From: Poriferisphaera corsica
GTDB taxonomy: Bacteria; Planctomycetota; Phycisphaerae; Phycisphaerales; Phycisphaeraceae
Reading direction: 5' to 3'
Assembly: GCF_007747445.1 (NCBI RefSeq)
Contig: NZ_CP036425.1
Coordinates: 682,001 to 746,000 of the forward strand
Length of the DNA stretch: 64,000 bases
Translations under genes and position numbers: made by a program
Notes under the pieces: model-generated
What the model was told of the DNA's origin: nothing
The model's input: only the letters and a program-made list of their open reading frames with translations
Databases searched by the model: none
Shown here: in pieces, positions 23,279-44,214 of the stretch
How the letters are laid out: each line of letters begins with the position of its first letter
Numbering within the stretch: the first letter of the stretch is position 1

Positions 23279-23309
23279 AAAAAAACAACCCCGTACCAGC
23301 GGTACGGGG
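23279..23309 (-). terminator. Repeat-family hairpin acting as dapA terminator
   Basis: CCCCGTACC at 23289-23297 pairs perfectly with GGTACGGGG at 23301-23309 around AGC. On the minus strand the stem is followed by TTG and a T-run (complement of 23279-23288). It belongs to the hairpin family seen at 38829, 41626-41935, 43025 and 44153, with a C-G pair replaced by T-A. Confidence 0.8.
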
Positions 23310-23398
23310 CTTGAGGTTTGTTGTTCTATCTATCGTTGCGCTGCAATCCAGTTTGGAATTGCAGGTGTTTGTGACGAAGCAGGGGGGGGAGGGGGGAT

Positions 23399-38486: not shown

Positions 38487-39280
38487 CTGGCTCACTCCCA
38501 AATTAAGGGCACCAAATACAACATAAAACATACTACGGACGACATCTTATATATCGGCAACCCCTAGCCGATTACTCAAAACTCCCTTTTAACTCCCTCT
38601 CTGTCAAATATTTATTTGAAGATCCTGGCCCCTCCCCCTCCTCCCCCTTCCCCTTCCACTCCCCCTCTCTTTTCCTACCTCGCCGCACATACGCCTATCC
38701 CCCGATCTCACTTCACAACTCAAGTTCATCAATATTGCATACTTTTGTTCTACAACGACAACCCAGCCTATCCCACCTCACGCAACCTCGCGCTCCCAGT
38801 CATGTTCACGGTGTTCGATGCTCTCAAGCCCGTCACCGCCGGTGGCGGGATGTTGCCCCAGCGATCTACAAGATTTTCTACCCATTCAATTCATCACAGA
38901 ATACTTCAGCAGAAGGCGTGACCGCCGTTCCAAATTTCAACCACTTCCGAGATATTACTAATATCTGCTGTGTTTCATGTGCAGGCATATTTATACGAAT
39001 TCCGCCCATAATCCCACATAGAATCACAAAATTAGGCTCATGATCCCTTTTCCACACCGCAATTCGAATAATTTTTTAAAAAAAAATATAAAGGAAAACC
39101 CCGCCTATCCAATTTAAACCTTACTTTTAAATTTTCTCTCAAATTCCTTGCCGATACGCCTTGAATTGGATCAGTTTTATAGACATATTATGCGTTAATT
39201 ATATAAGACACAGCAAGATCCTTAGTTTCAAGTTTTCTTGACTGGAAATGCCGTAACTAGATAAATGGAAAGGGTTTACA
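38487..39280. other. 790-base non-coding region before the lysine aminotransferase gene
   Basis: The first part is a pyrimidine-rich run (about 38620-38680) that looks like a coding frame only because of composition. A copy of the hairpin repeat lies at 38823-38849. From about 39040 the DNA becomes A/T-rich, with TTGAAT at 39161 and TATTAT at 39186 as a weak promoter candidate (19-base spacing) for the gene at 39281. Confidence 0.4.
38823..38849 (-). repeat. Hairpin repeat, dispersed copy in reverse orientation
   Basis: Read on the minus strand it is CATCCCGCCACC, GGC, GGTGACGGGCTTGAG. The stem 38829-38837 with 38841-38849 has one G-T pair and the CTTGAG flank of the family. No T-run follows on either side. 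Confidence 0.7.
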
Positions 39281-40612
39281 ATGACGACGCAAACAACTTC
39301 ATTGCCCGGGCCAAAATCCCAACAAGTTCTCGATGAGCTCCAGAAGTACATCATTGTCGATCCGCACCCTTATGCCGTTGATCTAGCCGCTTCCAAGGGC
39401 ATGTATATGGCCACTGTGGATGGCGACATGCTTTTTGATTGGGGTGGCTACTACGGCGCGAAACTCCTCTCACATAACCATCCAGGCCTCTTCGAGGAAG
39501 ACTACCTCAAAGAGCTCACCATGGTGGCCAACCACAAAATCGCTAATCCCGATTTTCTCACCCCGCAGTGTCTCGCTTACTACCGACTGATGCGAGGTAT
39601 GGCTCCCAAGTGCATGGAGAACCCGAACCTCGAACTTTATGTCGTGAACTCCGGCGCTGAAGCCGTTGAGAACATGCTCAAATACCTCATCAACATGCAC
39701 GACGCGAAGCGCAAAGCTCAAGGCCGCACGCCCGGCATCCGCCGCTTTGTTTACTTTGATTGCGCCTTCCACGGCCGCACCGTCTTTGCACTCAATATCA
39801 CACAGCTCCGTCACGACCCTGTCATGACCAAGGGCTTCAAAGGCATGGTTCCCGCTAACATCGAGATCCCATTCCCCGCAATCGACAACTCGCAGCCTGA
39901 GGAAGAGAACATCCAAAAAACAGAGCAGGCGCTCAACTTCCTTGAAGCGCAACTCAAACTCTTCGGTGACGAAATCGTCGGCATCATCTTCGAGCCTATC
40001 CAAGGCGCAGGTGGCCACCGTATCGCACTCCCCGATTTCTATCGCAAACTAAGTGAATTGGCTCACAAGTACGATACCTATCTCGGCGTTGATGAAGTCC
40101 AGACCGCGGGCGGCCAAACGGGCTCCATGTTCTGTATGGATCATTTTGATTTGCCATACCCACCGCAAGCGATCGCGGTTGCTAAGAAGTTCGGCAACGG
40201 CGTCCTGTACATGAAAGAATCCATGACCGATGAAGGCGTGCTCGACTCCACATGGGGCGGCTCACTCGTCGATATGGTTCGCTTCTCACAAGAGATGAAA
40301 ATCATCGAACGTGAAGGCTTAGTCGAACAGGTCCCTGAAAAGGAAAAACACTTTGTAGCCCTTCTTAACGATCTGTGCGACAAATACCCGGACATCATTT
40401 ACAACGTCCGTGGCATGGGCGTCTATCAAGGGATTAGTTTCCATAACGTTGCGGACAAAGGTAAATTTGTCGGCCGCATGTTGCACGAACAACAAACAAT
40501 CTTGATCGGTGCAGGCACGGACACGATCCGTTTCCGTCCGCCGATTGATGTGACGATTGAAGATATGGATTTGCTGCACGAGAAGTTTGAAGCAGTCCTG
40601 TCAACATTTTGA
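39281..40612 (+). CDS. lat: L-lysine 6-transaminase family class III aminotransferase
   Basis: A 443-residue PLP enzyme. VDGDMLFDWGGYYGAKLLSHNHP at the start, NSGAEAVENMLKY (phosphate binding), FHGRT, the Asp of DEVQTAGGQTG and Lys303 in AKKFGNG (Schiff base, by analogy) mark a class III aminotransferase. The start pattern and length fit L-lysine 6-transaminase, which moves the epsilon-amino group of lysine to 2-oxoglutarate, yielding the semialdehyde that closes to piperideine-6-carboxylate. In other bacteria this serves lysine catabolism or osmolyte and antibiotic precursors. It is monocistronic with a long leader and a strong terminator. Another omega-aminotransferase specificity cannot be excluded. 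Confidence 0.8.
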   Translation: MTTQTTSLPGPKSQQVLDELQKYIIVDPHPYAVDLAASKGMYMATVDGDMLFDWGGYYGAKLLSHNHPGLFEEDYLKELTMVANHKIANPDFLTPQCLAYYRLMRGMAPKCMENPNLELYVVNSGAEAVENMLKYLINMHDAKRKAQGRTPGIRRFVYFDCAFHGRTVFALNITQLRHDPVMTKGFKGMVPANIEIPFPAIDNSQPEEENIQKTEQALNFLEAQLKLFGDEIVGIIFEPIQGAGGHRIALPDFYRKLSELAHKYDTYLGVDEVQTAGGQTGSMFCMDHFDLPYPPQAIAVAKKFGNGVLYMKESMTDEGVLDSTWGGSLVDMVRFSQEMKIIEREGLVEQVPEKEKHFVALLNDLCDKYPDIIYNVRGMGVYQGISFHNVADKGKFVGRMLHEQQTILIGAGTDTIRFRPPIDVTIEDMDLLHEKFEAVLSTF

Positions 40613-40744
40613 AAGAACATATCAGTGTGAATCTGGAACATGTTTTAGATACACACTGAAAATATAAGCCACACTTTGTGCGGAATCTCGCGTTTCATTT
40701 CTACCAAACCAAAACCAAACACAACGCACCGCATTTAGTCGTAA

Positions 40745-40779
40745 AGAGGACATCAATAAAATTGGTGTCCTCTTTTTTT
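40745..40779 (+). terminator. Terminator of the lysine aminotransferase gene
   Basis: A 13-bp stem (AGAGGACATCAAT at 40745-40757 with ATTGGTGTCCTCT at 40761-40773, one G-T pair) has a 3-base loop and is followed by seven T residues. Confidence 0.93.
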
Positions 40780-40950
40780 GTGATTGAATCATTGGTGATG
40801 AATGATCGTGCGCGCGTTTTGAATCGGCTTTGGTTTTTAGGATGGTTGAAAAAGTACGGTTTGAAAATATGTCTATGCGCGTGTTAGTTAAGTCGGTGAG
40901 TGATTTTGTTAAGTCGGTATGAATAAATAAGGGGTTATGAAAATTAGAAG

Positions 40951-41115
40951 GCGCTTTTGTGCGCGCGTGTTCGTGTGGGGATTGATTTTCGATGATTTTC
41001 CCTAATCGAGAATGGACGGGATTGGTGTGAAATGTGTTGGTTTGGGTGAGAAATGAGGTGGAAATGATTTAAAATAGGCAGGTTTTAAATGTGGGAATGC
41101 GCGTTTGTGCGCGCG
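40951..41115. repeat. Two copies of the GCGC/TTTTGTGCGC motif
   Basis: GCGCTTTTGTGCGCGC at 40951-40966 and TGCGCGTTTGTGCGCGC at 41099-41115 share the core of the motif seen after cydB and around mtnP. The flanks are unrelated, so these are motif-sized copies and not a longer duplication. Confidence 0.55.
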
Positions 41116-41587
41116 GTTTGTTTAGTAGTTGGTTTTGGTATGCGATTTGCAGCGGGGATGGTTATGTGAAGCGCTTTAAGTTGTTGTTTTGCGGGATAAG
41201 ATGCAGGTAGTGGGTTGAAATTTTAGGTGTGCGGTTGTGTTTTTGGTTCGCATTGGCTTAAGTAATTCGCAATACTCGGAATTGAGAATTCATTGCTGGT
41301 TGGAGTGGATTTTTGGGGTATGGATTATGGCGTGTGCGCGTGGGTGTGCGTGTGGGGTGTGTGGGATTGGGGGCGTGTGTGTGGTAGTAGCGTGATCGGT
41401 ATGTGGGTGGGATGAGGGGAACGGCGAGGGAGATAGAAATGGCGTGTATGAAGCAGTTGAATTGTGTTACTTAAGTGTATTGTTGTTCGAGTGAATGTGC
41501 GTTTGAGTTGCTTTACTTAAGTGTGTCGTTGGAAGGAAGATGATAGTGATGGGAGAGGTGTGTGGACGGGAACGTGGAGGAGAGGGA

Positions 41588-41972
41588 TTGTTTCACTAAA
41601 GCGTATCGTAGGTAGGTTTAACATTCCCGCACCAGCGGTGCGGGGCTTGAGTAGATGAGTTGTTTCACTAAAGCGTATCGTTGGTAGGTTTAACACCTCC
41701 GCACCAGCGGTGCGGGCTTGAGTAGATGAGTTGTTGCACTAAAGCGTATTGTTGGCAGGTTTCACACCCTCGCACCAGCGGTGCGGGGCTTGAGTAGATG
41801 AGTTGTTTCACTAAAGCGTGTCGTTGGTAGGTTTAACATCCCCGCACCAGCGGTGCGGGGCTTGAGTAGATGAGTTGTTTCACTAAAGCATATCGTTGGT
41901 AGGTTTAACATCCCCGCACCAGCGGTGCGAGCTTGAGAAGATGAGTTGTTGCTTGAAAGCGTGTCGTTGGTT
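41588..41972 (+). repeat. Tandem array of five 71-72 bp units, each with a hairpin
   Basis: Units start at 41588, 41660, 41731, 41803 and 41875, with a sixth broken unit from 41946. Each has a left part (TTGTTTCACTAAAGCGTATC then GTTGGTAGGTTTAACAT) and a hairpin (CCCCGCACC, AGC, GGTGCGGGG) followed by CTTGAGTAGATGAG. Units differ by a few substitutions and one-base length changes. Left-half fragments also occur at 41467 and 41513. Confidence 0.92.
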
Positions 41973-42006
41973 GTGGGGTGGGGGCGGGATTGTTTTGTGT
42001 GAGGGG

Positions 42007-42951
42007 TCAGGTGATTGGTTGGAGATGATAGATGTTGAGTTTGACGAGGATGAGAGAGAAGGATGAGGTGATGAGCCAAAGGAGTGAGGCCATGAGTAGG
42101 AGTTTGCCGCGGATGATTTTGAGAGATTGCCGGGTTAGGCCGGCGCCGATGAAGAAGAGTGAGAGGATCATGAGTTGTTGGCCGAGTGCGTTGAGTGGTT
42201 GCCAGAAGTCGGCTTGGTTTGGGAAGTATGATCGGAGTGAAGCGGCGGCGATGAAGCCGAGGAGGAAGAGCGGGAAGTTGGTTTGGGTGTTTTGGTTTTT
42301 AACGAGTTTGGAGCAGGTGATGGAGAGAGGCATAATCCAGAGTGCTCTGGTGAGTTTGACGGTTGTGGCGATGGCGAGTGCGGGTGGGCCGTAGGCAGAG
42401 GCGGCGCCGATGACGCTGCTGGTATCGTGAATGGCGAGTGCGGACCAGAGGCCGAATTGGGTTTGTGTGAGGCCGACGAGTTTTCCGATGGGAGGGAAGA
42501 TGAAGAGCGCGATGGCGTTGAGTAGGAAGACGACGGCGAGTGAGACGCCGATGGCGTGCTGATTGGCTTTGATGGAAGGGCCCATGGCGGCGATGGCGGA
42601 TCCGCCACAGATTGCGGTGCCGCTGCTCGTGAGTAGAGCGATATGTGTGTCGATTTTGAGGGATCTTGCGAGGAGTAAGCCGAGGGCGAGGGTGGTGGTG
42701 ATGCTGATTGCGGTGATGGAGAAGGATTGAAGGCCGACGTGGAGGATGGTGTTGAGCTGGAGGCCGAATCCGAGGAAGACGACGGCGGCTTGAAGGAGGT
42801 ATTTAGCGAGATTGGCTGTGAATTGGGAGTGCGAGTTGCCGACGATGAGGCTGATGGCGACGCCAGTGCAGAGTGCGATTGCGGGGGAGTGGATGAAGAT
42901 GAGTACGGCAAGGCCGAGGCAGATCCAGAGGGTGGGGGTTTTATGATTCAT
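42007..42951 (-). CDS. YeiH-family putative sulfate exporter
   Basis: A 314-residue integral membrane protein of the YeiH / UPF0324 family, with about ten helices. TSSGTAICGGSAIAAMGPSI, IHDTSSVIGAASAYG and FIGAGLTRQSLK are the conserved blocks. Some members export sulfate or carry related anions. The ATG at 42951 (MNHKTPTLW) is chosen because the upstream 41 codons are unlike a membrane protein and include a hairpin repeat. The 3' end abuts the tandem repeat array. It is divergent from a LysR regulator, the arrangement of yeiH and yeiE in enterobacteria, so regulation by that protein is likely. Confidence 0.87.
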   Translation of the reverse strand: MNHKTPTLWICLGLAVLIFIHSPAIALCTGVAISLIVGNSHSQFTANLAKYLLQAAVVFLGFGLQLNTILHVGLQSFSITAISITTTLALGLLLARSLKIDTHIALLTSSGTAICGGSAIAAMGPSIKANQHAIGVSLAVVFLLNAIALFIFPPIGKLVGLTQTQFGLWSALAIHDTSSVIGAASAYGPPALAIATTVKLTRALWIMPLSITCSKLVKNQNTQTNFPLFLLGFIAAASLRSYFPNQADFWQPLNALGQQLMILSLFFIGAGLTRQSLKIIRGKLLLMASLLWLITSSFSLILVKLNIYHLQPIT

Positions 42952-43024
42952 GGGTAGGTGCTGGGTTTGAGGTTGGTCATTTATGTTTGTGTTGCAGGCG
43001 ATTGATTGTGTATTGGCTACACAT

Positions 43025-43045
43025 CCCCGCACCGGCGGTATGGGG
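43025..43045 (+). repeat. Hairpin repeat copy between yeiH and lysR
   Basis: CCCCGCACC, GGC, GGTATGGGG with one mismatch or G-T position, preceded by ACAT and followed by CTTGGAG. It lies in the divergent control region, 74 bases upstream of yeiH. Confidence 0.7.
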
Positions 43046-43151
43046 CTTGGAGTTAGGCGATGGGTGCTCCTCACTTCCGTGGGAGGTGCTAATATAGGGG
43101 ATGTTTAAGCATGATTCTAATTGATTAAATATATGTATATAATCAGAAATA

Positions 43152-44082: not shown

Positions 44083-44214
44083 GAGCGTCGTTGTTGGTTG
44101 GGATGGCTTGTGGGGGAAGTCACAAGAAAAATGGCAGCAGTTGTCGGGACACCCCGCCACCGGCGGTGGCGGGCTTGTGATGTGAGTGATATTACAAAAA
44201 TGTGTCGTTGGTTG
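44083..44214 (+). repeat. Diverged unit of the 72-bp repeat with hairpin
   Basis: GCGTCGTTGTTGGTTGG (about 44086-44102), a perfect hairpin CCCGCCACC, GGC, GGTGGCGGG (44153-44173), then ATTACAAAAATGTGTCGTTGGTTG (44191-44214). The same two modules, GTCGTTGG and hairpin plus CTTG, make up the tandem array at 41588. The stem differs from the array by paired changes. Confidence 0.7.

Follow-up and report, generated by a model that had tools for sequence, protein, structure and literature searches.

The tandem array of Poriferisphaera corsica KS4 described here lies in a window of 64,000 nucleotides (the whole stretch of DNA covered by an earlier note) and is built from a composite unit, in which an oriented 31-bp motif, referred to as R2, is joined to a REP-like hairpin; elsewhere, the two families are scattered independently of each other. 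A three-box module lies about 300 bp upstream of the tract, and the locus is one of many at which the GC skew switches abruptly from minus to plus. Considered alone, the array is a new combination of already known repeat kinds. Considered with its surroundings, it may represent the repeat tract belonging to a "switch locus" of origin-like character, and to this reading, which includes insertion of the hairpin, outward replication, and a role for R2, we assign a probability of roughly 0.4.

The five unit starts reported in the earlier note on this DNA (41588, 41660, 41731, 41803, and 41875) are correct, and the array is indeed intergenic, lying in a 1.4-kb gap between the convergent genes of an aminotransferase (+) and a YeiH-family protein (-) (Table 1). 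The units, which had been called near-identical, proved to be only similar, with a pairwise identity of 86-96% over 10 pairs. Sequence models built here detected eight R2 left modules (spanning 41459-41974) and five hairpins (spanning 41619-41937) in this gap. The supposed half-units at 41467 and 41513 and the broken sixth unit are present, but they are really hairpin-free copies of R2; the spacing of R2 is 46 bp without a hairpin and 72 bp with one. Searching the P. corsica genome with the array, the self-comparison that the note had suggested, returned 22 matches, of which 21 were partial and fell into two groups corresponding to the two halves of the unit, while no copy of the complete 72-bp composite was found outside the array. 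The two modules do not form a single element, as had been assumed: R2 is a separate oriented motif, and neither half alone explains the array. The note had further named an artefact, or a unit without any other copy in a relative, as grounds for refutation. The array is not an artefact in kind, as each half is found again in the sister species ZRK32, whose genome was sequenced separately, and the second ground falls away for the halves and holds for the composite within the searched DNA. Rfam gathering scores were reached in the window by only two tRNAs and the array matches no curated family, which rules out a known RNA family.

Table 1. Features of the array locus and its surroundings (positions within the window)
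Feature	Position	Strand	Remarks
REP-like hairpin, dispersed	23283-23315	+	
REP-like hairpin, dispersed	38823-38855	-	on negative-skew side
Class-III aminotransferase gene	39302-40612	+	left neighbor
GC-skew switch	40410-41150		cumulative-skew minimum near 40410; left about -0.2, right +0.5
Module box 1	40803-40836	+	degenerate; 19.1 bits
Module box 2	40947-40988	+	TTTGTGCGC
Module box 3	41093-41152	+	TTTGTGCGC; sigma54-type -24/-12 element at 41136-41150
R2 left module, hairpin-free	41459-41489	+	24.9 bits
R2 left module, hairpin-free	41505-41536	+	25.2 bits
Tandem array	41588-41971	+	TRF: period 72, 5.4 copies, score 621; P. corsica KS4
R2 left module, unit 1	41585-41616	+	26.8 bits
REP-like hairpin, unit 1	41619-41651	+	39.4 bits; fold
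R2 left module, unit 2	41657-41688	+	35 bits
REP-like hairpin, unit 2	41691-41722	+	34.7 bits
R2 left module, unit 3	41727-41758	+	30.5 bits
REP-like hairpin, unit 3	41762-41794	+	45.1 bits
R2 left module, unit 4	41799-41831	+	33.5 bits
REP-like hairpin, unit 4	41834-41866	+	48.5 bits
R2 left module, unit 5	41871-41903	+	31.5 bits
REP-like hairpin, unit 5	41906-41937	+	stem decayed; 28.4 bits; fold
R2 left module, terminal	41943-41974	+	hairpin-free; 16.7 bits
YeiH-family (Cons_hypoth698) gene	42007-42951	-	right neighbor
REP-like hairpin, dispersed	43019-43051	+	
REP-like hairpin, dispersed	44147-44179	+	followed by a weak R2 at 44192

ZRK32 (CP066225.1; 5,234,020 bases, compared with 4,291,168 bases for P. 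corsica KS4) is named P. heterotrophicis in PMC10945688. The R2 model yields at least 170 matches in this genome and 13 in P. corsica, whereas four other genomes have no more than 2 each, all weak. Among the 12 of the 13 P. corsica matches that were listed, seven fall in the array gap, where a closer scan adds an eighth, and a 400-kb sample of this genome contains none. Alignment of 75 copies from ZRK32 revealed a sharply bounded motif of about GAGTTGTTTCACTNNARCGTATCGTTGGTTG, and the clusters of R2 in this species keep one direction with a spacing of about 46-55 bp or about 100 bp. The left module is separable from chance only with the longer model, a short pattern allowing 2 mismatches being at chance level (42 matches versus 51 for the reversed control). 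At the syntenic site of ZRK32, the same genes, in the same order and direction, enclose a gap of 334 bp with one R2 in the opposite direction; together with the 86-96% unit identity, this backs a recent tandem duplication.

The hairpin carries an invariant tip, ACC(A/G)GCGGT, and an invariant foot, GGGCTTG, with a mid-stem that varies on both sides. The tip/foot pattern has 69 matches in P. corsica versus 0 for the reversed pattern, and the same loose pattern is found 0 to 3 times in each of 60 other genomes; a 33-position model finds at least 150 matches in P. corsica and six in ZRK32, and each of four further relatives has between 0 and 3. An evenly spaced 400-kb P. corsica sample contains 17 hairpins above 25 bits, from which about 180 are extrapolated genome-wide. 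Among 100 distinct copies picked by tip and foot only, with no pairing requirement, 287 of 300 mid-stem cells are paired, compared with a shuffled mean of 152.8 and maximum of 185; a separate figure of 97% paired arises by construction, those hairpins having been preselected for at least 8 of 9 pairs. Because stem pairing exceeds that of the shuffles, the folded single strand, be it DNA or RNA, is what is kept. The family is extragenic, with 86 of 91 hairpins outside called ORFs in sampled DNA that is 83% coding, as judged by gene calls from our own hexamer scorer instead of a standard tool. Neighboring hairpins less than 6 kb apart share their orientation in 48 of 59 pairs, and a single close inverted pair was seen, at the HUH gene described below, so that frequent inverted pairing does not characterize this family. 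Identification as intrinsic terminators was rejected, since the family has no T run and the sampled genome has separate T-tailed hairpins. A second tandem array of the hairpin comprises three family members exactly 128 bp apart (P. corsica G000:C1:3533800-3534700, L009). Another dispersed hairpin type, with a variable stem, a GTG-like loop, and a GGCTA end, was observed in ZRK32 (L051-L056, L075 4040-4062), an example lying near GGGCACGGCGAGCGTGGCTCGCCGGCTA.

Two Y1_Tnp matches are found in P. corsica. The intact HUH/Y1-like gene, present as a single copy, encodes 180 aa (L029 1279-1821) and has two family hairpins in inverted order just 3' of it, with none of the family seen 5'. A small helix-turn-helix-like gene follows on the opposite strand after these two hairpins (L029 1924-2169). 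The protein is a marginal member of Pfam Y1_Tnp (23.1 bits, cut-off 23) and stays below the cut-off of NCBIfam REP_Tyr_transpos (17.5 bits versus 80). Homologues occur in 24 of 41 genomes, its own included; this search found none in ZRK32, which has few hairpins. H-x-H and Y[IV]xxH are conserved in 14 of 14 aligned homologues, the latter as YIKRH in P. corsica. At seven of 13 loci in relatives, at least two like hairpins lie near the homologue, six of those seven with a GGGCTT end, and some hairpins beside the homologues of relatives carry CCGA, CGGA, or CAGA before AGCCC. The mobile hairpin considered in the earlier note therefore fits the hairpin half of the unit, which is dispersed, REP-like, and found in two copies by an HUH-like gene, but not the R2 half, which is a separate motif.

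The skew switch at the array is one of a series. Further abrupt minus-to-plus switches, with TTTGTGCGC boxes close by, are seen in the window at 12-13 kb and 56.5-57.5 kb, and 374 contiguous kb of P. corsica contain 11 such jumps, counted by eye, with slow decay between them. Under a rule requiring a difference above 0.4 between 4-kb flanks, 18 upward and 0 downward switches were called in 854 kb of P. corsica, and 13 upward and 4 downward in 600 kb of ZRK32, the four downward cases being counted against an origin reading. The skew amplitude at the switches reaches ±0.6 and decays over tens of kb. A skew above 0.3 is found in 38% of 1-kb windows in P. corsica and 32% in ZRK32, compared with seven of 580 in 29 samples from 15 relatives, most of these possibly in one G023 and one G052 sample. 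The skew goes down to -0.48 in a 20-kb sample of G023, a relative of the same family (L193, G023:C1:300001-320000), and given this sample strong local skew is not strictly unique. Over 966 genes of both species, gene skew correlates with that of the flanks (r = 0.90) and hardly with gene strand (r = 0.17), which rules out gene strand as the cause; inversion of segments was likewise ruled out as the cause of switching, as the genes stand in one order and direction in both species though the switch has moved. The cumulative-skew minima at the switches lie mostly within genes, in some cases as far as about 2 kb away from the boxes, which also counts against an origin reading.

Both repeat families follow the skew. 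Hairpin orientation agrees with the local skew sign, computed without the hairpin, in 91 of 91 cases, a set from which three of the array's hairpins were dropped and which includes same-domain neighbors, with 45 clusters more than 20 kb apart; such agreement makes the hairpins a polarity marker for HUH-type elements. The orientation of R2 agrees in 40 of 40 cases (ZRK32, 19 groups), and gene strand in only 286 of 514 genes. Relative to the switch, the YeiH gene occupies the plus side in P. corsica but the minus side in ZRK32 (L075 4146-5123), and its two proteins are 59% identical, with V+G+A+E+D fractions of 0.24 versus 0.35. Neighboring genes, the aminotransferase (92%) and a LysR gene (72%), keep their composition between the species. 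Composition is set by position relative to the switch, not by gene content.

The module upstream of the array is noncoding and consists of three boxes with the core TTTGTGCGC, spaced at about 148 bp, and a putative sigma54-type promoter; at several switches, boxes about 143-150 bp apart likewise lie inside a conserved noncoding stretch. TTTGTGCGC is the most enriched 9-mer near switches (37 versus 2.3 expected in P. corsica, 22 versus 1.6 in ZRK32) and has a copy no more than 2.5 kb from 17 of 18 and 11 of 13 sampled switches, respectively, compared with 3.4 and 2.4 for random places; discovery and counting of the motif used one set of switches, although the two species gave it independently. 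A model of box 3 has 59 matches in P. corsica and 140 in ZRK32, against at most 1 in each of seven others, and the window module has the highest score in P. corsica but belongs to the 17 copies from which the model was built. In six of the seven module stretches listed, TTTGG[TC]ATG-N-TTTGC follows the last box with sigma54-type spacing, the seventh being without the final TTTGC, and the invariance of this element in the module alignment is by construction, since the collection pattern demands it. Sigma54 promoters obey a GG-N10-GC rule, and the window element combines TGG and TGC at fixed spacing in a genome which, like that of ZRK32, has an rpoN gene. A strict element is found at most 60 bp downstream of four of 61 boxes in P. 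corsica and five of 38 in ZRK32, with none upstream or on the opposite strand of the same boxes in either species. A box with the strict element occurs at no more than 4 of the 18 P. corsica switches and 4 of the 13 in ZRK32, which rules out that every switch has a sigma54 promoter; the predicted promoter element is present at some switches and not a general part of them.

The layout of the window, a module and then an R2 tract, is the same as in ZRK32. Among 138 listed R2 copies of that genome, 55 have one of the 41 strong modules less than 3 kb away, and of these 52 are downstream of it on the same strand and three upstream on the opposite strand; 42 copies lie within 1.5 kb downstream of strong modules, compared with a random mean of 0.8 and a maximum of 9 in 1000 trials. 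R2 cannot be needed for the switch, because it is near-absent in P. corsica, where the switches are as strong. It is therefore more likely that the array is an accessory or a passenger of the switch locus than its cause.

For the array by itself, a neutral origin is a fairly plausible alternative, in which a chance encounter of two common intergenic repeats was followed by copying through slippage, with no role. The confinement of the composite to this place in the P. corsica genome, the decayed hairpin in unit 5, and the occurrence of other direct hairpin duplications, such as the three copies 128 bp apart near G000:3534102, agree with this account, which leaves unexplained the fixed place of R2 downstream of the ZRK32 modules and its fixed orientation. 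Such an array can be compatible with an origin at the same locus, and both may apply together.

Transcription has also to be considered as the source of the skew. Boxes and sigma54-type promoters might drive long noncoding transcripts, with transcription-linked mutation generating the skew and the array lying in a G-rich RNA leader, and the element after box 3 in six of the seven modules listed, the presence of rpoN, and the position of 52 of the 55 ZRK32 copies of R2 are in line with this. However, the skew is two-sided whichever direction the module points, it runs for 10-20 kb through genes of both strands, following the flanks rather than the strand, and the strict promoter is missing at most switches, which makes transcription an unlikely driver. 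Two-sided, site-marked switches might also be start sites of recombination or break repair, where outward repair synthesis would create the skew and the array would be a by-product of repair; the tandem duplication and the shift of the switch between species fit such a process. The same kind of switch and box in the dnaA-proximal region, and a skew sign that corresponds to leading strands moving outward, speak against it, and we regard it as quite improbable. Least credible by far is a regulator-binding array controlling the neighboring genes, for although R2 resembles a protein footprint in being a bounded 31-bp motif with free middle positions, both neighbors are convergent and end at the gap with none of their promoters inside, which rules out a promoter-proximal array between genes, and the same gap of ZRK32 has one R2 in reversed direction.

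The preferred reading remains that of an origin-like locus. Briefly, a hairpin element in single-stranded form, with the HUH protein as its probable mover, would have landed in the roughly 20-bp spacer of R2, as suggested by R2 spacings of about 46-50 bp without and 72 bp with the hairpin, and the composite unit would then have been duplicated in tandem. HUH-driven insertion would enter the lagging-strand template, which is the target described for IS608 and ISDra2 in PMC6006769. The switch itself would record a process that starts there and runs outward both ways with fixed strand chemistry. Replication initiation appears the likeliest such process on three grounds: the sign, with a G-rich leading strand outward, is that of bacterial origins; a switch and a box of this kind also accompany the candidate oriC near dnaA; and the hairpins keep to the polarity expected for elements entering the lagging-strand template. 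A minus-to-plus switch, by which replication origins are recognized, is present at the array locus, and we infer that replication may start from switch loci. Beside the promoter, the tracts of R2 could act in the manner of iterons or form a G-rich leader that is transcribed; of all the steps, this role is the weakest.

In P. corsica, dnaA is the first gene of the contig (1-1416, Pfam). A 1.26-kb gap near it (L165 6602-7877) contains the DnaA box TTATCCACA and is a candidate oriC. The largest switch called (0.86) lies at about 7.9 kb, at the edge of the gap containing TTATCCACA, and TTTGTGCGC is found at the other edge, within a doubtful small ORF.

Extending the origin reading to the whole genus, Poriferisphaera chromosomes might be replicated from very many dispersed origins, one per about 20-60 kb (which extrapolates to roughly 90 origins for P. 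corsica and roughly 110 for ZRK32), with TTTGTGCGC boxes marking each and the sigma54-type promoter and R2 tract, of which the array is one, marking part of them. We offer this proposal tentatively and think it somewhat doubtful. Textbooks give the bacterial chromosome one active origin, and the contradiction with this is counted against the origin reading. Should the switches prove to be origins, a culturable genus would break the one-origin rule for bacteria, and with dispersed origins this would be a bacterium with a eukaryote-like replication programme. Otherwise, some other strand-specific process reshapes whole proteins, such as YeiH, by position alone.

The hairpin is a 20-40 bp high-copy palindrome and shares with REP/REPIN sequences and their TnpA-REP (RAYT) proteins, as presented in the relevant parts of PMC3733652 and PMC6006769, the short extragenic form, a conserved unpaired foot, and a single HUH-Y1-type gene with copies beside it. 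The known foot there is GTAG or CGTC, whereas that of P. corsica is CTTG (CAAG on the other strand), and the P. corsica family differs further in a mid-stem that varies freely with compensation between a fixed tip, ACCRGCGGT, and a fixed foot, and in the rarity of inverted pairs. The HUH gene with its flanking hairpins has the arrangement of a REPtron, although neither the feet nor the class-3 Y motif given in the corresponding sections of PMC6006769 fit P. corsica. Class 3 TnpA-Y1 is described there as found mainly in Planctomycetes and flanked by atypical high-copy hairpins, and host and hairpins are alike in this respect; its motif YV[VI][AENY]EQ and foot CnGA differ from the Y[IV]xxH of the 14 aligned homologues and the CAAG of P. 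corsica. Toward sigma54 promoters with upstream activator sites, as outlined in the pertinent text of PMC12316311, the likeness lies in TGG[CT]AT-N5-TTGC, which matches TGGCACN5-7TTGCT at most positions, and in the palindromic upstream boxes; the window element differs in having no gene directly downstream and in sitting at a skew switch.

For the switches themselves, the skew of 0.5-0.6 compares with a typical 2.5% in the SkewDB description (PMC8941118). The word "skew" is absent from the available portions of the Poriferisphaera papers (including PMC10945688), and a search of open-licence papers found no sawtooth skew or dispersed origins in Planctomycetota. R2 resembles the iterons of plasmid origins, which are direct repeats bound by an initiator, in consisting of short direct repeats of one orientation beside an origin-like point, and differs in its 31-bp motif, its spacing of about 50 bp, and its chromosomal location at many loci. 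We know of no counterpart in a bacterial chromosome of site-marked, two-sided skew switches of 0.5-0.6 placed tens of kb apart. Sharp upward jumps with gradual decay between them are characteristic of eukaryotic skew N-domains and of multi-origin archaeal chromosomes, and this is the pattern seen in Poriferisphaera, here in a bacterium, with domains of about 20-60 kb and an amplitude of 0.5-0.6.
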